Assembly (NCBI GenBank): GCA_003554965.1
Contig: PWHR01000037.1
Coordinates: 1 to 64,000, forward strand
Length of the DNA: 64,000 nucleotides
Reading direction: 5' to 3'
Source: Thermoplasmata archaeon
GTDB taxonomy: Archaea; Thermoplasmatota; Thermoplasmata; Halarchaeoplasmatales; Halarchaeoplasmataceae
Positions 52,907 through 64,000 of the stretch are shown piece by piece; within the stretch, counting starts at the first letter, position 1; every line of letters begins with the position of its first letter. Under the pieces are notes generated by a model. That model was given only the letters and a program-made list of their open reading frames with translations. It was not told the DNA's origin and searched no databases. A program made the position numbers and the translations under genes.

Positions 52907-55900
52907 ATGAATAAGATGAAAAAAGACGTCTTAGTTGTCGGCGGGGGCATTTCAGGAGTTCAATCGGCCTTAGATCTGGCGGATAAAGGCTACGAAGTGG
53001 TGATAGTGGATAAGAAACCTAGTATCGGAGGGAATATGGTAAAGCTGGATAAGACCTTCCCTACAGATGACTGTTCTATCTGTATGTCCGCTCCGAAGAT
53101 GGTAGAGGTCAGCAGGCATGATAATATCGAATTACTGACCTATTCTGAAGTGAAGGATCTGCACGGTAGTGCGGGCTCTTTTGACGTAGATATCTGGCGA
53201 CGGACAAAATATATAGATCCCAACGAATGTACCGCCTGCGGAGATTGTGCCGACGTTTGCCCTGTTAGTATACCCCATGAATTTGAAGAGGGCTTATCTG
53301 AGAGATCCGCGATCTATGTTGAATATCCTCAGGCAGTCCCTTTGAGTTATACTATAGACTATGAACACTGTGTTGGATGTGGAGCCTGTGATGCAGTATG
53401 TGATGCGGACGCGATCCATTTTCTAGAGAAATCTGAAAAGATAGAGGTAGAAGTTGGGAGTATAATTTTAGCGACCGGCTTTGAGATGATGAAACCTAAA
53501 GAGATGAGGGATGAGTACGGTTATGATAAATACGACGATGTAGTCACCGCTTTGGAATATGAGAGACTGCTTTCATCTTCAGGTCCAACAGAAGGTGAAG
53601 TTTTGAAGCCCTCGGATGGAGAGAAACCAGAAGAGATAGCTTGGATACAGTGTGTTGGTTCGAGATGTAAACAGAAAGGCATGCCGTACTGTTCTAGGGT
53701 ATGCTGTATGTACGCCACCAAAGAAGCTTCTATAACTTTGAAAGAAGATCCAGATATCGACCCTTACATCCACTACATGGATATGAGGACATTTGGGAAG
53801 GATTTCCAGCAATATTATGATAGAGCTGAAGAGATGGGGGTGACTTACAAAAGAGGTAGACCTTCTAGAGTATATAAAATGGAGAAAGGTAAATTAGCTA
53901 TAGAGTACGAAGACACGGAAGAAGGTGTGGTAGAAACTAACGAGGTCGATATGGTGGTCCTGTCCTCGGCTATTATCCCATCTGAAGGTAATGAGGAATT
54001 GGCCGATATGATGGGTATAGAAGTGGATGAAAACGGGTTCTTCGAGTCAAAGGATATATTGACCGCACCGATGGAATCTACCCGGGAAGGTATATATCTG
54101 GCGGGATGTGCTCAGTCTCCTAAGGATATACCTGATAGTGTTGCTCAAGGTAGTGGGGCAGCCGGCAAAGCCATCGAGACTTTGAAGGGTAGAGTTAGAA
54201 AAGAGGAAGAGGAAAAAGCAGAAGAGAGAGATATCACTGAAGAAGAACCTAATATAGGTGTGTTCGTCTGCCACTGCGGAAAAAATATTGCAAATTATCT
54301 CGATGTTGAAGAAGTCATGGAAAGTGTTAATGATATCCCTGAAGTAAAATATGTTGCCGATCCGATGTTTGCCTGTTCTGAAGACGCGCAGAAGGAATTG
54401 AAGGAAGCGGTCGAAGAACATGGTTTGAATCGTTTCGTTATAGCGGCTTGTTCGCCAAGGACTCACGCGGAGCTCTTCGAAGATACTTTCGAAGAGATAG
54501 GTTTGAACAGATACCTTATCGAGATGGCTAATATAAGAAATCAATGCAGTTGGGTCCACAGTGACGAACCTGAAAAAGCTACTGAGAAAGCCAAGCTGTT
54601 GACCAAGATGGCCGTATCCAAGGCCAAACGTTTGGCGGCTCTCCACGAACATAAAATAGAGGTAGGGGATAGATCGGTAGTTGTAGGAGGCGGCCCAGCA
54701 GGGATGAAAACAGCATTGAGCCTAGCTGATGCAGGTCATGATGTTACGTTGATAGAAAAAGAAGAAGAGCTTGGAGGCAAATTGAACAGGCTTGACAAAC
54801 TTTTCCCATCCGATATAGATGCTGAAGAGTTGAGGAAAGATCTGGTACGGCAGATCGAAGACAACAATAACATAACTGTTATGACCTCCACAAAATTAGA
54901 GGATGTGGAGGGCTATGTCGGTAATTACGAGATCGAACTTAGTTCAGGAGAAACCATAGAGAGCGACACAATAATATTATCTACAGGGTTCCAGGAGATC
55001 GATCCCCCGGGTTTCTATCACTACGGGGAAGAAGACGGCGTGATGACTCAATTGGAACTGGACGAAGCTTTAGCCGAGGACTCATTGGAAGAACCAGAAA
55101 ATGTTGTTTTCATCAACTGTGTAGGAGCATTAGAGGAAGAAAGACCGTGGTGCTGTAGAGTCGGTTGTGGTAATTCATTGAAGAACGCTAAAGCGATAAA
55201 AAGAAAGTATCCGGATTCCAATGTTTACGTACTCTACAAGGAGATGAGAGTTTTCGGTAAAGGAGAAGAGGAATATTATGCGGACGTCCAGGAAGAGGAC
55301 GGCGTGATCTTTTTGAGGTATTCCAGCGATGACAAACCAGTGGTGGAAAGAAAAGATGATAGATATCATGTAAAAGTCCACGATAACCTTTTGGACGATG
55401 ACGTGGAGATAGAATCCGATTACGTGGTACTTGCGATGCAGTTGAAAGGTGACCCCAGTACAGAAAAACTTCAGAAGATGCTTAAATTATCTGCTGATCC
55501 TTCGGGTTTCTTCATGGAGGCCCATGCCAAACTACGTCCTCTCGAATTCCCGTCAGAGGGCGTCTATCTAGCTGGAGGGGCTCAGTATCCCAAGAATATA
55601 TCTGACACTCTTTCGCAAGCTGAAGGTGCAGCTTCCAAAGCGGAGATACCGATGATGAAGGGTTATACCAAAAGCGAAGCGTATATCGCAGAGATAGACG
55701 AAGATATCTGCAGCGGTTGCAAGATGTGTATATCCGTTTGTCCATACGGTGCTATCGACTTCGATGAGGAAGAGGAAGTGGCGGAGATGACCGATGTACT
55801 CTGTAAGGGATGTGGATCCTGCGCGAGTGTTTGTCCCTCTAATGCTATAAAGCAAAAAGGATTCGATGATGATCAATTGTCTGCGATGATAAAAGCCGCG

Positions 55901-55921
55901 CTATATGATGAGGTGGTATGA
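52907..55921 (+). CDS. hdrA: Double HdrA: two fused flavin-iron-sulfur units
   Basis: HdrA is the electron-bifurcating FAD subunit of heterodisulfide reductase, passing electrons to HdrBC and to ferredoxin. This 1004-residue protein contains two HdrA-type halves. Half 1 (1-435): FAD site VVGGGISGVQSALDLADKG, CSIC at 56-59, an inserted ferredoxin with clusters at Cys108-118 and Cys155-165, then the CVGSR..CSRVCC segment; it lacks the N-terminal cluster domain. Half 2 (445-1004): N-terminal domain (FVCHCGKN, FACSED, ACSPRTH), FAD site VVVGGGPAGMKTALSLADAG near 588, the CVGAL..CCRVGC segment, no inserted ferredoxin, and a C-terminal ferredoxin near 934-975. Together the halves hold one full set of HdrA modules plus a second flavin. 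The stop overlaps mvhD by 4 bases. Confidence 0.93.
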   Translation: MNKMKKDVLVVGGGISGVQSALDLADKGYEVVIVDKKPSIGGNMVKLDKTFPTDDCSICMSAPKMVEVSRHDNIELLTYSEVKDLHGSAGSFDVDIWRRTKYIDPNECTACGDCADVCPVSIPHEFEEGLSERSAIYVEYPQAVPLSYTIDYEHCVGCGACDAVCDADAIHFLEKSEKIEVEVGSIILATGFEMMKPKEMRDEYGYDKYDDVVTALEYERLLSSSGPTEGEVLKPSDGEKPEEIAWIQCVGSRCKQKGMPYCSRVCCMYATKEASITLKEDPDIDPYIHYMDMRTFGKDFQQYYDRAEEMGVTYKRGRPSRVYKMEKGKLAIEYEDTEEGVVETNEVDMVVLSSAIIPSEGNEELADMMGIEVDENGFFESKDILTAPMESTREGIYLAGCAQSPKDIPDSVAQGSGAAGKAIETLKGRVRKEEEEKAEERDITEEEPNIGVFVCHCGKNIANYLDVEEVMESVNDIPEVKYVADPMFACSEDAQKELKEAVEEHGLNRFVIAACSPRTHAELFEDTFEEIGLNRYLIEMANIRNQCSWVHSDEPEKATEKAKLLTKMAVSKAKRLAALHEHKIEVGDRSVVVGGGPAGMKTALSLADAGHDVTLIEKEEELGGKLNRLDKLFPSDIDAEELRKDLVRQIEDNNNITVMTSTKLEDVEGYVGNYEIELSSGETIESDTIILSTGFQEIDPPGFYHYGEEDGVMTQLELDEALAEDSLEEPENVVFINCVGALEEERPWCCRVGCGNSLKNAKAIKRKYPDSNVYVLYKEMRVFGKGEEEYYADVQEEDGVIFLRYSSDDKPVVERKDDRYHVKVHDNLLDDDVEIESDYVVLAMQLKGDPSTEKLQKMLKLSADPSGFFMEAHAKLRPLEFPSEGVYLAGGAQYPKNISDTLSQAEGAASKAEIPMMKGYTKSEAYIAEIDEDICSGCKMCISVCPYGAIDFDEEEEVAEMTDVLCKGCGSCASVCPSNAIKQKGFDDDQLSAMIKAALYDEVV

Positions 55922-56364
55922 TGGATTCCGATGAATTTGAACCAGAGATAATCGCTTTTTTATGTAATTGGTGCAGTTACGCTGGAGCCGATCTGGCAGG
56001 GGTAAGCAGAGAGCAGTACCCTTCAAATATATTGAATATCCGGGTTATGTGCTCCTCTAGAGTTTCCCCGGAACACGTGTTTGAATCATTCCAGGAGGGC
56101 GCCGACGGCGTCCTCATAGCCGGATGTCATCCCGGTGACTGCCACTACATAGACGGCAACTACAAAACCATAAGAAAGACCTGGCTTTTGAAGAAGATGA
56201 TGGATGATATGGGTATCGATCCAGACCGGTTGAGGTTAGAATGGGTTTCTTCCGCTGAGGGTGGTAAATTTGCGAAAGTCATGGAAGAGATGACGGATGA
56301 GATCAAAAAGATGGGTCCACTTGAACTCGATGGCAATGATTTGAGTGGTGAATATGATGAGTGA
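55918..56364 (+). CDS. mvhD: Hydrogenase/heterodisulfide reductase linker subunit MvhD
   Basis: A [2Fe-2S] protein that carries electrons from the hydrogenase MvhAG to HdrA. The 148-residue protein has AFLCNWCSYAGADLAGV, VMCSSRV and LIAGCHPGDCHYIDGN, supplying the cluster cysteines and family marks. Starts with overlapping ATGATG at the end of hdrA and overlaps mvhG by about 10 bases, so the subunits are translated together. Confidence 0.94.
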   Translation: MMDSDEFEPEIIAFLCNWCSYAGADLAGVSREQYPSNILNIRVMCSSRVSPEHVFESFQEGADGVLIAGCHPGDCHYIDGNYKTIRKTWLLKKMMDDMGIDPDRLRLEWVSSAEGGKFAKVMEEMTDEIKKMGPLELDGNDLSGEYDE

Positions 56365-57331
56365 TAAAAAGAAAATTGGCTTTTACTGGTGTGGAGCCTG
56401 CGGAGGTTGTCAGGTCAGCATTTTGGATATAGATGAGATGATTTTAGACGTCGTAGAACAGGCTGATATAGTCTTTTGGCCATGTGCGATGGATCCAAAA
56501 TATGAAGATGTTTATGAAATGGACGAAGATGAGATCGATCTAATGTTTATAAATGGTTCAATAAGGCTTGAAGAAAACAAAGAGATGGCTGAGCTATTGA
56601 GAGAAAAGGCGAAGGAAATTGTTGCCTATGGGTCATGTTCTGTCAATGGAGGATTGTTCGGCTTAGGTAATCTGAGCGATAAAAAAGAATTATTGGAGAG
56701 AGGTTACAGCACGAAAACCACTGATGAGGGTTCGCTGCCCCAAAAAGTAACAGAAGTCGAAGAGGGCGACCTAAAACTTCCCGAGATGCTCCATCATATC
56801 GTACCCTTGGAAGAGATAATAGATGTAGATTATCTGTTACCGGGCTGCCCTCCTTTACCGAACCAACTCGAGGAAGCTCTCCCAGCTTTGTTGGACGATG
56901 ATACAGAAGTCGGAAAACATGATCTCATATCCAGCAAGAGCGTTTGCGATGTTTGTCCTATGGAGAGAGAGGAAAAAAAGATAGAAGGATTGAAACCGAT
57001 CCAGGAAGTTGAATTTGATCCCGAGGAGTGTATCTTGGATCAGGGAGTACTTTGCATGGGTCCAGCAACAGCCGGTATGTGTGATGCACCCTGTACTGAA
57101 GTGGCACATCCGTGCGTGGGCTGCAACGGCCCGGTAAAAGATGTGAAAGATCAGGGCAGCAGGATGGCTTCAGCTCTAGCATCAGTCATAGGTGTCGAAG
57201 GGGAAGAAAAGATGAGTGAAGAGGAGGTTCAGGAGACGATGGAAAGTATAAGAGATCCAACTGGATCCATGTACATGTTCAGTTTACCGAGCAGTATAAT
57301 GCAATACAGGAGAGGGGATATCGATGAGTGA
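56354..57331 (+). CDS. mvhG: [NiFe] hydrogenase small subunit MvhG
   Basis: It carries the iron-sulfur relay of a cytoplasmic, F420-nonreducing (group 3c type) hydrogenase. The protein has about 325 residues. The proximal cluster motif is FYWCGACGGCQVSILD, with further ligands in AYGSCSVNGG and the LLPGCPPLPNQLEEAL segment. Medial and distal ligands lie in CDVCPM, CILDQGVLCMGPATAGMC and HPCVGCNGP. No twin-arginine signal, so it stays in the cytoplasm. ATG at 56354 after GAGTGGTG is preferred to the GTG at 56345. Confidence 0.94.
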   Translation: MMSDKKKIGFYWCGACGGCQVSILDIDEMILDVVEQADIVFWPCAMDPKYEDVYEMDEDEIDLMFINGSIRLEENKEMAELLREKAKEIVAYGSCSVNGGLFGLGNLSDKKELLERGYSTKTTDEGSLPQKVTEVEEGDLKLPEMLHHIVPLEEIIDVDYLLPGCPPLPNQLEEALPALLDDDTEVGKHDLISSKSVCDVCPMEREEKKIEGLKPIQEVEFDPEECILDQGVLCMGPATAGMCDAPCTEVAHPCVGCNGPVKDVKDQGSRMASALASVIGVEGEEKMSEEEVQETMESIRDPTGSMYMFSLPSSIMQYRRGDIDE

Positions 57332-58787
57332 GGATGGAAAAAAGATATCTATCGATCCCATAACAAGGCTGGAAGGCCATGGTAAGATCGAGATATTTCT
57401 AGATGATGAAGAGAACGTCAAAAATGCCTATCTTCAAGTACCGGAGTATAAGGGTTTTGAGAAGTTCTGTGAAGGTAGAAGAGCGGAAGACATGCCCAAT
57501 ATAACGAACAGGATTTGCGGTGTATGTCCGGAAGCTCATCACTTAGCTTCTACTAAGGCCCTTGACGACGCTTACGATGTTGAGCCTCCGGAACCCGCGA
57601 AAAAATTGAGAGAGGTATTTTACAACGCTTATATATTTGCAGACCACATACTCCATTTCTACTATCTAGCGAGTCCCGACTTTCTAGTCAGTGTGGATGC
57701 CCCTAGGGAAGAGAGGAATATACTTGGGGTTATAGGTGAAGTCGGCGAAGAGATAGGTAAAAAGGTTATAAAACAGAGAGGAAAAGGTCAAAAGATAGTC
57801 AGGATGTTGGCCGGTAAATCCGTTCATCCTGCCTTTGGAGTGCCTGGTGGCGTGACTAAATCATTTACCAGTGAAGAAAGAGAGGAACTGGTAGAGATGA
57901 CTAGTGATATGGTGGATTTTGCTGAATTCACTCTTGATCTTTTCAAGGATGAAGTTCTTTCTGAGTATAAAGATACGATTGTCGAAGACAGACTTGAAAC
58001 TTACAGTATGGGTCTTATAGAAGACGGTAAGTTGAGTCATACTGAAGGTGAGGTGAAAGTTGTGGATCCAAAGGGGGATGACTTTACTTCGTTTAATGGC
58101 GTTGATTATACCGACGTGATCAGGGAGCATACTGAACCCTACAGTTATATGAAGTTCCCCTACCTAAAAGAGATAGGATGGAAAGGTTTTGAGGAGGGTA
58201 AAGAATCCGGTGTTTACCGTGTCGGTACGCTGGGAAGGATAAACGCATGCGATGGTATGAAGACCGAAAAGGCGCAGAAAGAATATGAAGAGATGTTCGA
58301 TACTTTGGGTTATCCGGTACATTCAACATTAGCTTATCATTGGGCTCGTTTGATCGAAGTCTTACAAGCGGCGGAGATCTTGCAAGAGTTGGCTAAAGAT
58401 GAAGACCTTGAGAGCGATAACATCAGGAACGAAGTTGGTGAACCGGGAAGTGGAGTGGGGATAGTGGAAGCCGCTAGAGGCACTCTGATACACGATTACG
58501 AGCTTGATGAGGACGGACTGGTTAAAAACGCTAATCTGATAGTCGCTACCAATCACAACGCCTCGGTGATCTCCATGAGTGTAAAAGATGCAGCGAAGAA
58601 ATACATCGATGGAGGGAATGTTCAGGAGGGCATGTTGAACAGTGTTGAAAGAGCTTTCAGAGCATACGATCCCTGCTTAGCTTGTGCAACTCATTCCGCG
58701 ATGGGTGAAACCCCTTTGAAAGTTAACATATACGGCCCCGATGGCGAAAAATATGGAGAAGTGACCCAAGGGTTGGGTGATAAATGA
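57324..58787 (+). CDS. mvhA: [NiFe] hydrogenase large subunit MvhA
   Basis: It holds the Ni-Fe site that splits H2. The four Ni-binding Cys are in RICGVCPEAHH near the N-terminus and DPCLACATH near the C-terminus. About 30 residues follow the last His (ending with GEVTQGLGDK), which normally are removed by a maturation protease. That protease and hyp genes are not in the window. 487 residues, normal length. Overlaps mvhG by 8 bases and hdrC by 4. Confidence 0.95.
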   Translation: MSEDGKKISIDPITRLEGHGKIEIFLDDEENVKNAYLQVPEYKGFEKFCEGRRAEDMPNITNRICGVCPEAHHLASTKALDDAYDVEPPEPAKKLREVFYNAYIFADHILHFYYLASPDFLVSVDAPREERNILGVIGEVGEEIGKKVIKQRGKGQKIVRMLAGKSVHPAFGVPGGVTKSFTSEEREELVEMTSDMVDFAEFTLDLFKDEVLSEYKDTIVEDRLETYSMGLIEDGKLSHTEGEVKVVDPKGDDFTSFNGVDYTDVIREHTEPYSYMKFPYLKEIGWKGFEEGKESGVYRVGTLGRINACDGMKTEKAQKEYEEMFDTLGYPVHSTLAYHWARLIEVLQAAEILQELAKDEDLESDNIRNEVGEPGSGVGIVEAARGTLIHDYELDEDGLVKNANLIVATNHNASVISMSVKDAAKKYIDGGNVQEGMLNSVERAFRAYDPCLACATHSAMGETPLKVNIYGPDGEKYGEVTQGLGDK

Positions 58788-59182
58788 TGAAGATCAAAAA
58801 ATTGATGAGGGATATAGAACTGCTCGAAAAAGTGGAAGAATTATCTGAGCAATCCCCTAATGCCTGCATACAGTGCGGAACTTGTTCAGCAGGCTGTCCC
58901 TTCGTTGACGAGATGGATGTACTCCCTGAGAGGATATTCAAGTACATAGTTTTAGATGAAGTAGAAAAAGTGCTGGAGAACAACACCATGTGGATCTGCG
59001 CAGCGTGTTATACCTGCAGCGTGAGGTGTCCTCGTGATATAGATATAGCGAGGATCATGGAAGGAGTTAGACAGATAATACTCCGTGCGGATATAGATAA
59101 CGTGGATGTGGATGAAGTGGATAATATCGAGGAACTGCCCCAGTTAGCCGTAGTGGGCTGTTTCAGAAAGGAGACGGGGTGA
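58784..59182 (+). CDS. hdrC: Heterodisulfide reductase subunit C
   Basis: A 132-residue protein with two [4Fe-4S] motifs (CIQCGTCSAGCP and CAACYTCSVRCP) that relay electrons from HdrA to the HdrB active site. The C-terminus AVVGCFRKETG resembles the usual HdrC ending, so the protein is complete though short. It is placed between mvhA and hdrB with 4-bp and 1-bp junctions. Confidence 0.92.
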   Translation: MMKIKKLMRDIELLEKVEELSEQSPNACIQCGTCSAGCPFVDEMDVLPERIFKYIVLDEVEKVLENNTMWICAACYTCSVRCPRDIDIARIMEGVRQIILRADIDNVDVDEVDNIEELPQLAVVGCFRKETG

Positions 59183-59183
59183 T

Positions 59184-60038
59184 ATGATGGTAGAAGGACA
59201 TTATTATTATCCTGGTTGCACCATGAAGGAAAAGGGAAGTGACTATGAGAAAAGTGCGATGAAAGTGATGGAACAGTTGGGAGAACCTCTGGTGGAGATG
59301 GAAGATTGGTACTGCTGCGGCGCGGTACAGTCTCTTTCCGAAGACGATATCATGCACCAGATCGCTCCCATACGAACACTTTTGATGGCTCAGGAGGCTG
59401 GAGAGGACGAAGTGGTCACATTATGCGATATGTGTTATAACGTTTTGAAGCAGGCCAGCGAGAGGATGAAGGAGAAAGAGGACGATCTGGAGACGATGAA
59501 CGAATTTTTAGATGAGGATCCAGATTACGAAGGAGGAGTCGAGATATACCACCTATTCCATATCTTGAAAGAGAAAAAAGGTGAGATAGAAGAGAATGTA
59601 GAAGAACCACTTGAAGATCTTGTTGTCGCTCCTTACTACGGATGTATGCTGTTAAGACCGGATCATGTTGCGATAGACAACACCGAAGATCCGGAGATAA
59701 TGGAGTCCTTCTTGAAACTTTTAGGCGTCGAATTGATCGAGAATGAGAAAAGGACTGAATGTTGCGGTTCATATCATACAGTAAACAGGTCTGATATAGT
59801 GGAAAAGCGGGTGGAAGATATAGTGGGTTATGCTGCTAGAGAGGGCGCAGATATGATAGTTTTGTCCTGTCCGCTCTGTCATTTCAATTTGGATTATCAT
59901 CAAAGAGCTACGGAATTTGAAATACCCGTGCTCTATATAACGGAATTGATGGCTCTGGCATTTGGATTGGATATTGAGATGGAGCATCATAGTATAGATC
60001 CTACTTCTTTGCTTGAAGAGAAAGGGATCAAGGAGTGA
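59184..60038 (+). CDS. hdrB: Heterodisulfide reductase subunit B
   Basis: The catalytic subunit with two noncubane [4Fe-4S] clusters that reduce a thiol disulfide. Both CCG-domain motifs are complete. The first is Cys12, Cys44-Cys45, Cys81 and Cys84 (C-x31-CC-x35-CxxC). The second begins at YYGCML and continues with TECCGSYH and CPLCHF (C-x38-CC-x34-CxxC). Conservation of every ligand argues for real disulfide reduction, as with CoM-S-S-CoB in methanogens, although the native substrate is unknown. It precedes the fumarate-reductase-like pair by 6 bases. Confidence 0.94.
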   Translation: MMVEGHYYYPGCTMKEKGSDYEKSAMKVMEQLGEPLVEMEDWYCCGAVQSLSEDDIMHQIAPIRTLLMAQEAGEDEVVTLCDMCYNVLKQASERMKEKEDDLETMNEFLDEDPDYEGGVEIYHLFHILKEKKGEIEENVEEPLEDLVVAPYYGCMLLRPDHVAIDNTEDPEIMESFLKLLGVELIENEKRTECCGSYHTVNRSDIVEKRVEDIVGYAAREGADMIVLSCPLCHFNLDYHQRATEFEIPVLYITELMALAFGLDIEMEHHSIDPTSLLEEKGIKE

Positions 60039-60044
60039 GATAAA

Positions 60045-60764
60045 ATGGATAAAGAAGAGACGGATGAGGAAGAAACGGAAGAAGAGATGGTTGAGATCTT
60101 CGTCATGGGAAGCCGATACCGGGTTCCAGAGGGTCTTACCATCCTGACGGCTTTAGAATACGCTGGTTATAAGTTCACCCGTGGCTGCGGCTGTCGTGGT
60201 GGGTTCTGCGGAGCCTGCGCTACGGTTTACAGAACTGAAGATGAGTATAAGTTGAAGATGGACTTGGCATGTCAGACAGCCGTCGAAGACGGGATGTTTT
60301 TGGTACAGTTGCCCTTCATGCCGGCCGTGAGGGAAGATTACGATATCGAGGAAGTCGATCCAGAGGAACACGAAAACATCCTGCTAGATTACTATACCGA
60401 AGTTGCAAGATGTGTTTCCTGCAATACCTGTACCAAAGCCTGTCCTCAAGATATAGAGGTCATGGATTACGTTCAGTCGGCCTTAAGAGGAGACATAGAA
60501 AGGACTGCAGAACTTTCTTTCGATTGTATACATTGTGGTCTCTGTTCGATGAGGTGTCCCGCAGATATCAAACATTACCACATGGCACAGATGGCCCGCA
60601 GGATCTATGCTAAGTACGAACAGCCGGACAGCGAAGAACTAGCGCTACGTGTTGAAGAGCTCGAAGAAGGAAAATATGATGAAAAGATGGAAGAGTTGGT
60701 AAAGATGGAGAAAGAGAAGTTAAAGAAGATGTACGATGAGAGAGATATCAAGGAGGAGGGTTGA
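60045..60764 (+). CDS. Fumarate reductase/succinate dehydrogenase iron-sulfur subunit (TfrB N-terminal type)
   Basis: A 239-residue protein with an N-terminal plant-type [2Fe-2S] domain (RGCGCRGGFCGAC and LACQTAV) and two complete CxxCxxCxxxCP motifs (CVSCNTCTKACP, CIHCGLCSMRCP). Usual SdhB has [4Fe-4S], [3Fe-4S] and [2Fe-2S]; here the second site also looks like [4Fe-4S]. Methanogen thiol:fumarate reductase TfrB is a fusion of this type of domain with an HdrB-like CCG domain; in this locus HdrB is a separate upstream gene. An acidic C-terminal helix follows. Overlaps the flavoprotein gene's upstream region, sharing GGAGGAGG. Confidence 0.85.
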   Translation: MDKEETDEEETEEEMVEIFVMGSRYRVPEGLTILTALEYAGYKFTRGCGCRGGFCGACATVYRTEDEYKLKMDLACQTAVEDGMFLVQLPFMPAVREDYDIEEVDPEEHENILLDYYTEVARCVSCNTCTKACPQDIEVMDYVQSALRGDIERTAELSFDCIHCGLCSMRCPADIKHYHMAQMARRIYAKYEQPDSEELALRVEELEEGKYDEKMEELVKMEKEKLKKMYDERDIKEEG

Positions 60765-60766
60765 AC

Positions 60767-62419
60767 ATGTCTGAAGGCTATCCTGATTACATGAGAGAGA
60801 GCATAAAAAAGGTTGAAAAGACCAGGCCGGAAAGGATAGATAAAACGCCTGAAAGGATGGATCCAGACGAAGCCGACGAAGTCCTTAATAATTTTCATCC
60901 AGACTACAGACCAGAGGGCAAAAAGGAGATACAGATAGGACCGAGTGAAGGAAGAAAAGCACCTAATGAAGTCAATGAATTGTTGGAGGCTCACAGTCTT
61001 ATCGATCCCTCAGATATCGATTTAAGTCAGATAGACCATGATGTTGACATATTGATTATCGGAGGCGGAGGTGCCGGGACCGTCGCTGCACTTTCAGCCG
61101 TTGAGGAAGGAATAAAACCGGAAGACATTCTGATAGCGACCAAGTTGAGGCACGGAGATTCTAACAGCATGATGGCTCAAGGTGGAATGCAGGTAGCGGA
61201 TAGGGAGGACGATTCACCTGTAAAGCATTATCTCGACGCCATAGGCGGCGGACATTTTACCAACGCACCTGAACTCGTCAAAGCTCTGACTAAAGACGCC
61301 CCTAAAATATTGAAGTGGCATGAAGAACTCGGTATGATGTACGATCGAGAAGAGGACGGTAACTTCGTTGAACTTCCTGGAGGCGGGACTTCAAGATACA
61401 GGCTCCACTCTGCAGGAGATTATACAGGTATGGAACTGATGAGAGTTCTAAGAGACGAAGCAAGGAATCTAGACATACCGGTTTTGGAATTCACACCCGC
61501 GGTCGAACTGCTCAAAGACAGTAAAGGGCAGATTGCAGGCGCTGTGTTGATGAATTTAGAAACTAATGAGTATTATGTGGTTAGAGCGAAATCTACTATA
61601 ATGGCTACCGGCGGATTCGGCCGACTGCATATACAGTCGTATCCCACTACGAACCATTATGGTGCTACAGCCGACGGGTTGGTCATGGGATACCGAGCAG
61701 GAGTACCGATAAGGGACCTTGACAGCGTTCAGTATCATCCTACAGGTGCGGCTCACCCTGATCAGATAGTCGGTCTTCTGGTTACCGAAAAGGTTAGAAG
61801 TCTTGGAGCTCAGCCCGTTAATGCCGATGGTGAGCTCTTCGTAAATCCTTTAGAGCCGAGAGATATCGAGGCTGCCGCTTTAATACGTGAATGTTATGGT
61901 AATGGCAACGGAGTCAAGACGCCAACAGGTATGAAAGGGGTCTGGTTAGATTCGCCTCTTATAGAGGAGAAAAAGGGAGAAGGTACAATAGAGGAAAGTC
62001 TACCTGCGATGGTCCGACTTTATGAGAGGTTCGGTATCGACATGACGGAAGAACCCATACTCGTGTTTCCGACCCTTCACTACCAGAACGGCGGTTTGGT
62101 GATAAATCCAGATGGGTCGACACCTGTCAAAGGATTGTTTGCAGGAGGAGAAGTCGAAGGAGGAGTCCATGGAAAGAATAGACTTATGGGCAACTCACTG
62201 CTTGACTACAACGTCTTTGGCAGGAGAGCAGGTATTAACGCCGCTAGCCACGCTAAGAAAGCTTCACTCGGCGATTTGACGCTCGATCATGTCAGCAAGT
62301 ACGAGCAGCAGTTGGACGAAGCTGGAATCGAGACGGATCGAAAAGCTCCTATGCTTTTGCCTGAATATAGAGGAGAGAAGGTGCTTGAAAGGCATTTGGA
62401 TGTAAAAGTGACATTGTAA
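60767..62419 (+). CDS. Fumarate reductase/succinate dehydrogenase flavoprotein subunit
   Basis: It interconverts fumarate and succinate at an FAD site. The 550-residue protein has a lead-in of about 80 residues, then ILIIGGGGAGTVAALSAVEEG for FAD, SNSMMAQGGMQVA, ATGGFGRLH, QYHPTG with the substrate His, TEKVRSLGAQPV with the Thr-Glu-Arg proton-relay residues, FPTLHYQNGG and HGKNRLMGNSLLDYNVFGRRAG. RSLG replaces the more usual RGEG. The C-terminal helical domain is shortened (ends at LDVKVTL) compared with SdhA. ATG at 60767 follows GGAGGAGGG. No membrane anchor subunit is nearby, so a soluble complex with the preceding subunit is expected, as in thiol:fumarate reductase. A different 2-enoate substrate remains possible. 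Confidence 0.86.
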   Translation: MSEGYPDYMRESIKKVEKTRPERIDKTPERMDPDEADEVLNNFHPDYRPEGKKEIQIGPSEGRKAPNEVNELLEAHSLIDPSDIDLSQIDHDVDILIIGGGGAGTVAALSAVEEGIKPEDILIATKLRHGDSNSMMAQGGMQVADREDDSPVKHYLDAIGGGHFTNAPELVKALTKDAPKILKWHEELGMMYDREEDGNFVELPGGGTSRYRLHSAGDYTGMELMRVLRDEARNLDIPVLEFTPAVELLKDSKGQIAGAVLMNLETNEYYVVRAKSTIMATGGFGRLHIQSYPTTNHYGATADGLVMGYRAGVPIRDLDSVQYHPTGAAHPDQIVGLLVTEKVRSLGAQPVNADGELFVNPLEPRDIEAAALIRECYGNGNGVKTPTGMKGVWLDSPLIEEKKGEGTIEESLPAMVRLYERFGIDMTEEPILVFPTLHYQNGGLVINPDGSTPVKGLFAGGEVEGGVHGKNRLMGNSLLDYNVFGRRAGINAASHAKKASLGDLTLDHVSKYEQQLDEAGIETDRKAPMLLPEYRGEKVLERHLDVKVTL

Positions 62420-62439
62420 AAGATCAGGTGTAGATAAGG

Positions 62440-62646
62440 ATGATAGAAGTTAATGAAAAGTACTGTAAAGGATGCAACCTGTGCATAGAGTTCTGCCCTA
62501 GGGACGCGCTAGAACCCGCCGAAGAGTTGAACGAAAAGGGAGTCCACCCTCCAGTAGAAGTGGAGGATCGGTGCGTGAATTGCCACCTTTGTGAATTGAT
62601 ATGTCCGGATTTTGCTATAATTGTAGAGGAAGAAGAGGAGGTATAA
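62440..62646 (+). CDS. korD: 2-Oxoacid:ferredoxin oxidoreductase delta (ferredoxin) subunit
   Basis: A 68-residue two-cluster subunit (CKGCNLCIEFCP and CVNCHLCELICP) with the ELNEKGVHPPVEV linker typical of KorD/VorD. It carries electrons between the thiamine-diphosphate active site and ferredoxin. It ends 2 bases before korA. Confidence 0.92.
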   Translation: MIEVNEKYCKGCNLCIEFCPRDALEPAEELNEKGVHPPVEVEDRCVNCHLCELICPDFAIIVEEEEEV

Positions 62647-62648
62647 AT

Positions 62649-63809
62649 ATGATCGGAGAAATCGATTTGGATAAGGCCAAGAAGGCCATAGGCGACAGAT
62701 CTCAGTTCATACATGGAGATACCGCCGTTGCATACGGTGCTCTATTGGCGGGCTGTAGATTTTTTGGTGGTTATCCCATCACGCCTGCTTCTGAGATAGC
62801 TGAGAAGATGGCGGAACTACTCCCAAAGATAGGGGGCAAATATATACAGATGGAGGACGAACTCGGCAGCATAGCCTCAGTGATAGGCTCATCATGGGCG
62901 GGAGCTAAGGCTATGACCGCTACTTCAGGACCTGGGTTTTCATTGATGCAGGAAAACATCGGCTTCGCTCACATGAGTGAAACACCTTTGGTGTTAGCTA
63001 ACGTTCAGCGCTCTGGTCCTTCCACTGGTCAACCAACTTTGGGAGCTCAGGGTGACGTGATGCAGGTCCAGTATGGAAGCCACGGTGATTTTGCGGCGAT
63101 AGCACTCTCCCCCAACAATATCCAGGAGACTTTGGATCTAACAATTAAATCGTTCAATCTTGCTGAGAAATACAGAACACCGGTCATGCTTATGATCAGC
63201 GCAGATCTAGGGCATATGAGAGAGATGGTCGAAATACCCGATGAGGTAGAAACTTTTGAAAGGAAAGAGCCTAAAGTATCTCCTGAAGAATATATCCCTT
63301 TTGGCAAAGGCGAGTATGGTAAGGAGAAGGTGCCAGAATTCGGTATATTTGGTAAGGGATTTAGGACTTATGTGACTGGTTTAACCCACGATGAGAAAGG
63401 TTTCCCCGCCACCGACGATCAAGAAGACCACGATAACCTGATCAGGAGGCAGGTCGAAAAGATAACCGATGACAGAGAGGAACTGACCGATATAGAGAGA
63501 AGGCGGTTAGATGACGCGGAGAAGGTGATAATCTCTTACGGGATAACGAGCAGGAGCGCAATGGGGGCTTTAAAAGAGGGCAGGAACAGAGGTGAAAAAT
63601 TGGGTTACCTGCGCTTGAAAACTCTGTGGCCTTTCCCAAAACACGTGATAAAGGAGATATCGGAACAGGTAGACAAGATTATCGTGGCTGAATTGAATTT
63701 AGGGCAGATATATCATAAGGTCGCAGAACATGCTGAATGTGAAGTAGCGCTTGCGGATAAGATCGGTGGCGAAGTCCATTCGCCTGAAGAGATACTAGCG
63801 GAGGTGTAA
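62649..63809 (+). CDS. korA: 2-Oxoglutarate:ferredoxin oxidoreductase alpha subunit
   Basis: The KorA subunit of the enzyme that carboxylates succinyl-CoA to 2-oxoglutarate with reduced ferredoxin, or runs in reverse. Of 386 residues: GDTAVAYGALLAGCRFFGGYPITPASEI (domain I start with the YPITPSxE-type motif), QMEDELGSIASVIGSSWAGAKAMTATSGPG, and the C-terminal transketolase-like part (VIISYGITSRSAMGAL, LRLKTLWPFP, EVDKII-like QVDKIIVAELNLGQI). The ATG at 62649 is preferred; the frame is open from 62601 inside korD. 2-Oxoglutarate rather than another 2-oxoacid is inferred from the KorDAB order and the fumarate reductase neighbour. Confidence 0.9.
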   Translation: MIGEIDLDKAKKAIGDRSQFIHGDTAVAYGALLAGCRFFGGYPITPASEIAEKMAELLPKIGGKYIQMEDELGSIASVIGSSWAGAKAMTATSGPGFSLMQENIGFAHMSETPLVLANVQRSGPSTGQPTLGAQGDVMQVQYGSHGDFAAIALSPNNIQETLDLTIKSFNLAEKYRTPVMLMISADLGHMREMVEIPDEVETFERKEPKVSPEEYIPFGKGEYGKEKVPEFGIFGKGFRTYVTGLTHDEKGFPATDDQEDHDNLIRRQVEKITDDREELTDIERRRLDDAEKVIISYGITSRSAMGALKEGRNRGEKLGYLRLKTLWPFPKHVIKEISEQVDKIIVAELNLGQIYHKVAEHAECEVALADKIGGEVHSPEEILAEV

Positions 63810-63811
63810 TG

Positions 63812-64000
63812 ATGGCTGAAGAGCAGAAATTTGAGACTGAAGAGAAAGTAGAAAGGAAACAAAAAACAGGCATGATCAATGCCAAAGAGTTGGAAGAGAA
63901 GTACCTTCGAAAAGGTATGATGCCGCATATATTCTGTACTGGATGTGGGATCGGAACTGTTCTTGGACTGACACTTCGTGCTATGGAAGAAATCGATATG
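63812..64000 (+). CDS. korB: 2-Oxoglutarate:ferredoxin oxidoreductase beta subunit, N-terminal part
   Basis: The start of the thiamine-diphosphate-binding subunit, cut by the right edge after 63 codons. The segment MPHIFCTGCGIGTVLGLTLRAMEE matches the KorB cluster/TPP region (FCxGCGxG). An N-terminal Glu/Lys-rich extension of about 35 residues precedes it. GAGGTG lies 5 bases before this ATG; an adjacent ATG at 63809 overlaps the korA stop. Confidence 0.92.
   Translation, partial: MAEEQKFETEEKVERKQKTGMINAKELEEKYLRKGMMPHIFCTGCGIGTVLGLTLRAMEEIDM

Follow-up and report, generated by a model that had tools for sequence, protein, structure and literature searches.

An array of twelve genes in a non-methanogenic archaeon from a salt lake probably forms one electron-splitting unit, in which H2 would be used both to reduce fumarate to succinate and to charge ferredoxin. 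The array lies at the right-hand end of the stretch that we analysed (the window, 64,000 nucleotides), which comprises bases 1-64000 of the 126,540-bp contig PWHR01000037.1 in a metagenome-assembled genome (MAG) of a Thermoplasmata archaeon (2.33 Mb, 93% complete). The genes follow one another on the plus strand (52907-65238) in the order HdrA-MvhD-MvhG-MvhA-HdrC-HdrB-TfrB-TfrA-KorD-KorA-KorB-KorC, and with modest confidence we read them as one soluble bifurcating H2:fumarate,ferredoxin oxidoreductase plus its ferredoxin consumer. The intergenic spacings from HdrA to KorC are −4, −20, −8, −4, +1, +6, −4, +20, −1, −1 and −4 bp; a 250-bp gap follows KorC, and the gene upstream of HdrA lies on the opposite strand. 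A previous reading of the window's letters (the sequence-only reading) had described same-direction genes with overlaps or very short gaps, and every gene that it named was present in that order on one strand. The window end at 64000 cuts KorB; the extension to the right that this reading had proposed for korB and korC recovered both complete, bringing the array to 12 genes. All the cofactor and active-site motifs examined in the array were intact. The named close relatives are Thermoplasmata MAGs, PWKY01 (CSSed10 sample) and Candidatus (Ca.) Haladaptatiplasma halalkaliphilum, and the family PWKY01 has been assigned to Ca. Haloplasmatales (PMC11287216). Because the genome holds eight KorB homologues in 2.33 Mb, KorB would fall within 5 kb of a given gene by chance in only a few percent of cases by a rough estimate, and the arrangement is thus beyond chance. 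Furthermore, KorB and TfrA lay on the same contig in 9 of 10 family relatives among the close KorB orthologues listed (63-74% identity).

The predicted TfrB (60045..60764, plus strand) is a short protein of 239 aa with [2Fe-2S] and two [4Fe-4S] cluster motifs (PF00111/PF13510 and Fer4), and it matched positions 19-86 of the TfrB model. The TfrB of methanogens joins two halves in one chain, one carrying iron-sulfur clusters and the other, rich in cysteines, oxidising coenzyme M and coenzyme B (CoM-SH and CoB-SH); this architecture was reportedly described by Heim et al. in 1998 (cited in PMC6315080). Twelve of the 13 cysteines were invariant in 95 sequences, whereas the thiol-oxidising cysteine-rich C-terminal (CCG) half was absent in all 94 homologues, the TfrB of the window ending at about 239 aa. 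Since this second half is missing throughout, the enzyme type would have no evident thiol site. The name TfrB, as used in the sequence-only reading, therefore fits the 2Fe-2S/2x4Fe-4S half but not the second half of the B subunit of thiol:fumarate reductase. The suggestion that thiols feed fumarate reduction finds no support on the same point. A search for mcrA, whose positive control worked and which did not extend to CoM/CoB biosynthesis, likewise gave no match in this genome or in nine family members. Compared with the methanogen thiol:fumarate reductase TfrAB, the active-site residues of TfrA and the iron-sulfur half of TfrB are alike, whereas the CoM/CoB thiol half is missing here and a separate HdrB stands in its place.

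TfrA (60761..62419, plus strand), a flavoprotein of the TfrA/FrdA fumarate reductase type, scored 330.1 bits against the TfrA model, under the cut-off of 718, and showed a 93-aa N-terminal extension and a shortened C-terminus. Residues H326, T342, E343, R346, R367, H440 and R474 were invariant in 99 sequences; we take these seven to be the equivalents of the FrdA fumarate site, in line with an alignment to FrdA and with what is known of that enzyme. An asparagine (Asn135, 99/99) occupies the position of the histidine that binds flavin adenine dinucleotide (FAD) covalently in FrdA/SdhA, as opposed to SHSVAAQGG in the genome's own SdhA, and the FAD of TfrA is expected from the sequence to be non-covalent. 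The structure nearest to an AlphaFold model of TfrA (pLDDT 73, pTM 0.77) was E. coli FrdA (1kf6). Two other identities for TfrA were rejected. L-aspartate oxidase (NadB) is encoded separately in a NadB-NadC pair on contig C19, and TfrA showed neither a NadB model match nor a nad context. A canonical quinone-linked Sdh/Frd is inconsistent with the lack of the covalent-FAD histidine, the lack of an anchor in the operon and the presence of a separate SdhAB in the genome. In that separate locus (contig C18, L143:3833-7681), a gene for an aspartase/class II fumarase comes immediately after SdhA and SdhB, with no membrane anchor seen; the locus perhaps encodes a second, aspartate-fed fumarate reductase.

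HdrC (58784..59182, plus strand) carries two CxxCxxCxxxC motifs for two [4Fe-4S] clusters (TIGR03290, 69.8 bits, under the cut-off of 160). The adjoining HdrB-like protein (59184..60038, plus strand), with two CCG domains, is the proposed relay from HdrC to TfrB. It scored 149.3 bits against TIGR03288 (under the cut-off of 345) and nearly as much, 141.2 bits, against the SdhE model of methylmenaquinol:fumarate reductase (MFR). In addition, it matched positions 266-486 of the fused TfrB model, which is the second half, and would thus fill the slot of the missing TfrB half. Its CCG motifs were both intact, with the cysteines conserved in 77-78 of 78 sequences, and it was the sole full-length HdrB found in the genome. 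In a tree, the Tfr-linked HdrB proteins formed a branch separate from the canonical HdrB of relatives. By analogy with 8-methylmenaquinol:fumarate reductase (SdhABE), in which the CCG protein SdhE likewise serves the iron-sulfur subunit SdhB, the neighbouring HdrB would be the natural electron donor for TfrB. Unlike the present system, SdhABE is a membrane-bound quinone enzyme without HdrA or hydrogenase, and the match of HdrB lies under the curated SdhE cut-off. Two relatives (G002, L151:1330-19329; G001, L152:5899-13817) carried a second, canonical HdrABC with MvhGA beside genes of beta-oxidation (enoyl-CoA hydratase, 3-hydroxyacyl-CoA dehydrogenase and an acyl-CoA synthetase-like protein), the second-cluster MvhA in G001 being 87% identical. 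This arrangement suggests H2-linked fatty acid oxidation; the second cluster was not found in the window's genome, where HdrB occurs just once.

HdrA (52907..55921, plus strand) was called a double HdrA in the sequence-only reading, and this description proved apt: it is a single type II chain of 1004 aa (NCBIfam HdrA2, 1043.7 bits; matches to PDB HdrA 8rvu/5odc) with two thioredoxin-reductase-like FAD domains and a C-terminal 2x4Fe-4S domain, and is the proposed bifurcating flavin centre. A Glu and a Lys are the marks of a bifurcating HdrA (PMC12054007). In the first domain, E219 and K272 aligned with E356/K409 of M. thermolithotrophicus HdrA; in the second, an Asp occupies the Glu position and K759 is kept. 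Because the FAD-tuning Glu and Lys are retained in one domain, the electron bifurcation that had been attributed to Hdr-Mvh appears plausible. MvhD/FlpD (55918..56364; PF02662, 180.5 bits) would link hydrogenase to HdrA, and MvhG/VhuG (56345..57331; PF01058; NCBIfam VhuG 203.9 bits, under the cut-off of 450) and MvhA/VhuA (57324..58787; VhuA 404.6 bits) correspond to the small and large subunits of a [NiFe] group 3c hydrogenase, all three on the plus strand. MvhA contains both Ni ligand motifs, RICGVCPEAH and DPCLACATH. All six HdrABC-MvhADG subunits are thus encoded, together with the Ni ligands, the 2x4Fe-4S of HdrC and the two CCG motifs of HdrB. The subunit set, flavin residues and hydrogenase motifs are those of the methanogen HdrABC-MvhADG, whereas here a divergent HdrB lies beside TfrBA, mcrA was not found, and fumarate is proposed as the acceptor instead of CoM-S-S-CoB. 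Elsewhere in the genome (contig C17, L150:5018-18713), two more multi-subunit NiFe hydrogenase clusters with NuoE/F/G-like subunits faced each other within 14 kb.

The array closes with KorDABC, a complete four-subunit set with a 2x4Fe-4S KorD. All four genes are on the plus strand: KorD (62440..62646; best NCBIfam model OGOR_delta, 80.4 bits, under the cut-off of 125), KorA (62646..63809; NF006412, 537 bits, above the cut-off of 411; POR_N and PFOR_II), KorB (63809..64714, its 5' part to 64000 in the window; best match the beta subunit of 2-oxoglutarate ferredoxin oxidoreductase, 273.8 bits, under cut-off) and KorC (64711-65238, beyond the window). The best matches of KorD and KorB were 2-oxoglutarate models, though both were below cut-off, and 2-oxoglutarate is the presumed product. 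Succinyl-CoA synthetase (SucCD) had been noted as lying outside the window, and indeed SucC was found past the operon, at a distance of 11 kb and on the opposite strand, and SucD on contig C82 as a neighbour of FumAB. FumAB, SucC and SucD complete in this genome the branch fumarate-succinate-succinyl-CoA-2-oxoglutarate, which had been proposed as a dedicated reductive route; its enzymes are in place, and the reductive direction is the more probable.

Gene content, spacings, motif integrity, the gene complement of the genome and the conservation of linkage are observed; we infer that the proteins form a complex, that HdrB transfers electrons directly to TfrB, that electrons are bifurcated, that Kor is specific for 2-oxoglutarate and in which net direction the module runs. 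In the proposed mechanism, H2 would be oxidised by MvhGA and the electrons passed via MvhD to the HdrA flavin, which would split each pair. One electron would go down to ferredoxin by way of the ferredoxin domain of HdrA; the other would go up through HdrC, HdrB and the iron-sulfur protein TfrB to the FAD of TfrA, where fumarate would be reduced to succinate. Rather than reducing a disulfide, HdrB would relay electrons as a TfrB second half that has become a separate protein, so that HdrCB would feed TfrBA directly with no disulfide. Two H2 per fumarate would yield one succinate and two reduced ferredoxins. SucCD would then make succinyl-CoA, and KorDABC would carboxylate it to 2-oxoglutarate with those two ferredoxins (1:1), the net reaction being fumarate + CO2 + 2 H2 + ATP -> 2-oxoglutarate. 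Since Kor needs two ferredoxins per succinyl-CoA, equal to the two released, the operon would be stoichiometrically balanced whichever way it runs. For ferredoxin held at −500 mV, the computed energy release in the reductive direction was ~70 kJ at 1 bar H2 and 24 kJ at 10 Pa, and reversal was computed near 0.1 Pa H2, or at 0.8 Pa with succinate 100-fold over fumarate.

A first search, covering 61 relatives, showed the TfrA subfamily to occur across the class. A scan of 84,980 species genomes then confirmed at least 586 TfrA relatives, of which the best-scoring 80 were compared; these include related species, so that the counts are not independent events, and the organism names are MAG labels. 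The subfamily spanned ~20 phyla of both domains; among the 80, there were archaeal holders in Thermoplasmatota, Bathyarchaeota, Heimdallarchaeota, Culexarchaeota and others, and bacterial ones in Chloroflexota, Bipolaricaulota, WOR-3, Bacillota and others. Flanks of at least 7 kb upstream and at least 4 kb downstream were available for 48 loci; in these, TfrB was near TfrA in 47, HdrB in 42 and HdrA in 42. The input modules near TfrA were MvhA (13/48), Flx (10/48) and FrhB-like without Flx (8/48). KorA was near in 20 loci, fumarase, SucCD or malic enzyme in 22, and Kor or one of these in 38. Several gene orders were seen: HdrA-MvhDGA-HdrCB-TfrBA-Kor, the same without Kor, HdrCB-TfrBA-Kor-HdrA, Kor-TfrBA-HdrA-HdrCB and Kor-HdrA-HdrCB-TfrBA. 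One complete genome (L043) carried HdrCB, HdrA, MvhD, FrhB-like, TfrBA, malic enzyme, SucCD and FumAB in one stretch. Along the TfrA tree, the input module (Mvh, Flx or FrhB-like) switched at least 12 times and Kor linkage changed 10 times, while the TfrBA-Hdr core stayed constant. These linkage counts and switches against a constant core indicate that TfrBA and Hdr are the core, that the electron source is exchangeable and that Kor is a frequent partner. The near-universal pairing of Tfr and Hdr, together with the 38 loci with Kor or C4-acid genes in several orders, agrees with the earlier view that the parts belong together functionally. A regular separation of Hdr-Mvh from Tfr and Kor, which would have spoken against that view, was not seen between Hdr and Tfr but was seen in part for Kor. 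The H2-fed module holds for this locus, with MvhGA and intact Ni motifs, but MvhGA is only one of three input modules; similarly, Kor is part of this array but is linked in less than half of the loci. Two Dehalococcoidia loci (L114, L119) showed no HdrCB near TfrBA; their TfrBA, SucCD and fumarase were accompanied by an iron-sulfur protein with 57-59% identity to one adjoining TfrBA in L043 and by a partner protein of weak similarity, possibly another electron-input module. One contig filed under a Spirochaetaceae MAG (L051, PWGF01000061.1) held a cassette 83% identical to that of the window and is probably a misbinned piece of Haloplasmatales.

Several observations weigh against an H2-driven bifurcating fumarate reductase coupled to Kor. 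None of the three input modules was within reach in 17 of the 48 loci; many loci had no linked Kor, and most had no linked MvhGA. The genome also has the canonical SdhAB beside aspartase, so fumarate chemistry does not depend on the operon alone. Most Mvh, Hdr and Tfr profile models were matched under curated cut-offs, and parts of the TfrA AlphaFold model near the active-site loops are weak. Natural HdrB-TfrB or TfrB-TfrA fusions were not found in the loci examined, where only HdrA-MvhD fusions were seen, and no member of the family is known to have been purified. HdrB retains both non-cubane cluster motifs, which form the disulfide site in methanogens. Their retention would fit a classical Hdr-Mvh that reduces ferredoxin and a small or protein disulfide, with TfrBA as a separate thiol:fumarate reductase using the thiols. 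The lack of the thiol-oxidising half in TfrB, the failure to find mcrA and the presence of the core in Lachnospiraceae, a bacterial group that is not known to use CoM/CoB, make this improbable, although Asgard papers label relatives as thiol:fumarate reductase (PMC9723677, PMC8163825). We likewise give little credence to a linear H2:fumarate oxidoreductase without ferredoxin reduction, in which HdrA would be a mere wire and Kor would draw its ferredoxin from elsewhere. The absence of Kor from many loci and the Asp in the second HdrA domain suit such an enzyme, but E219 and K272 are conserved in the first domain, the C-terminal ferredoxin domain is kept, and more than 80 kJ/mol would be wasted at standard H2. 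That Mvh-Hdr, Frd and Kor are independent enzymes sharing an operon for regulation only would accord with the loci in which Kor stands apart, a good part of the total; it is very improbable given the linkage of TfrBA with Hdr in 42 of 48 loci, many phyla and several orders, and no other electron donor for TfrB is evident.

The direction of the module is less clear-cut, and syntrophic, H2-evolving oxidation of glutamate carbon is a serious rival, which we consider a real but lesser possibility. In this case, Kor would oxidise 2-oxoglutarate from amino acids, SucCD would yield ATP, and succinate oxidation by TfrBA would be pulled by confurcation with the Kor ferredoxin, with H2 evolved. This direction suits the 1:1 stoichiometry just as well; several loci have malic enzyme and fumarase in linkage, and CdhC was not found in the genome. 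Relatives in the family have been described as fermentative heterotrophs (PMC11287216), and an oxidative route from 2-oxoglutarate to malate with TfrA has been drawn for Culexarchaeia (PMC9723716). However, the reverse run needs H2 below ~0.1-1 Pa at ferredoxin −500 mV. Furthermore, no citrate synthase domain was found in any of 16 family genomes, a result that would cover ATP-citrate lyase too but not Re-citrate synthase, and the reductive branch is then the evident source of 2-oxoglutarate. Methanogens make 2-oxoglutarate in the reductive direction. Because no oxidative source of 2-oxoglutarate is evident, we favour the reductive direction for making it. The absence of citrate synthase does not by itself fix the direction: its occurrence is mixed in other Tfr-bearing families, and it is only suggestive.

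Related systems have been proposed before. A bifurcating Flx-Hdr-linked fumarate reductase (the "succinate operon") was proposed for Pseudoclostridium thermosuccinogenes (PMC7282089, citing preprint 10.20944/preprints201912.0288.v1), in which, as summarised there, fumarase, an Hdr/NADH-dehydrogenase bifurcation complex and a two-subunit fumarate reductase lie together. The coupling of ferredoxin reduction to fumarate reduction in this type is only proposed in that account (PMC7282089). Lachnospiraceae loci of the present TfrA subfamily share this layout. By its description, and not by a sequence comparison, the P. thermosuccinogenes system differs in being bacterial, in using NADH via Flx and in having no Kor in the operon as outlined; here, the host is an archaeon, H2 enters via MvhGA instead of FlxAB, HdrA has two FAD domains and Kor is attached. 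In tubeworm symbionts and Thioflavicoccus, korABCD-tfrAB-flxABCD-hdrABC lie in a cluster of the reductive tricarboxylic acid (rTCA) cycle (PMC6315080, PMC11636981). Kor, Tfr and Hdr are interspersed there as well, and a direct electron shuttle to Kor and Tfr was proposed (PMC6315080); the cluster is co-expressed, with tfrAB itself deviating (PMC11636981). Unlike the present array, it relies on NADH-driven Flx and an ATP-citrate lyase rTCA cycle, whereas here the input is H2 and neither citrate synthase nor ATP-citrate lyase was found. We found no description of the H2-driven archaeal form or of the breadth of the family in the literature, where our search reached few subscription papers or preprints. 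What is new is thus the H2-driven variant; an NADH-driven relative was previously proposed, and the whole type is still unproven. Apart from these loci, ARAGORN reported a 97-nt tRNA with an undetermined anticodon at positions 603-699 of the window (minus strand), which may hold an intron or be unusual.

We tentatively propose that modular flavin bifurcating fumarate reductases form a family across both domains, an idea that we hold slightly less firmly than the reading of the operon itself. In such a family, fumarate and not a disulfide would be the high-potential acceptor of HdrCB, the donor would be H2 here and NADH or possibly F420H2 elsewhere, and the Kor-linked members would be self-balanced modules, making or oxidising 2-oxoglutarate with precisely as much ferredoxin as is released. 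In several genome papers, the function of Mvh-Hdr in archaea that lack CoM/CoB chemistry is left open: for Ca. Natronoplasma, which appears to come from the window's own lineage, the group 3c hydrogenase was said to have a role that is "not clear" (PMC11287216), and the Asgard and Culexarchaeia papers seek an unknown disulfide. The operon offers a concrete acceptor, fumarate. It also suggests that the label "thiol:fumarate reductase (CoM/CoB)" is wrong in many annotations and argues against its use in non-methanogens (PMC8163825, PMC9723677). If true, the proposal would extend the bifurcating enzymes by a member that runs on H2, and 2-oxoglutarate synthase, which catalyses a difficult step of reductive carbon metabolism, would have an inexpensive source of power.

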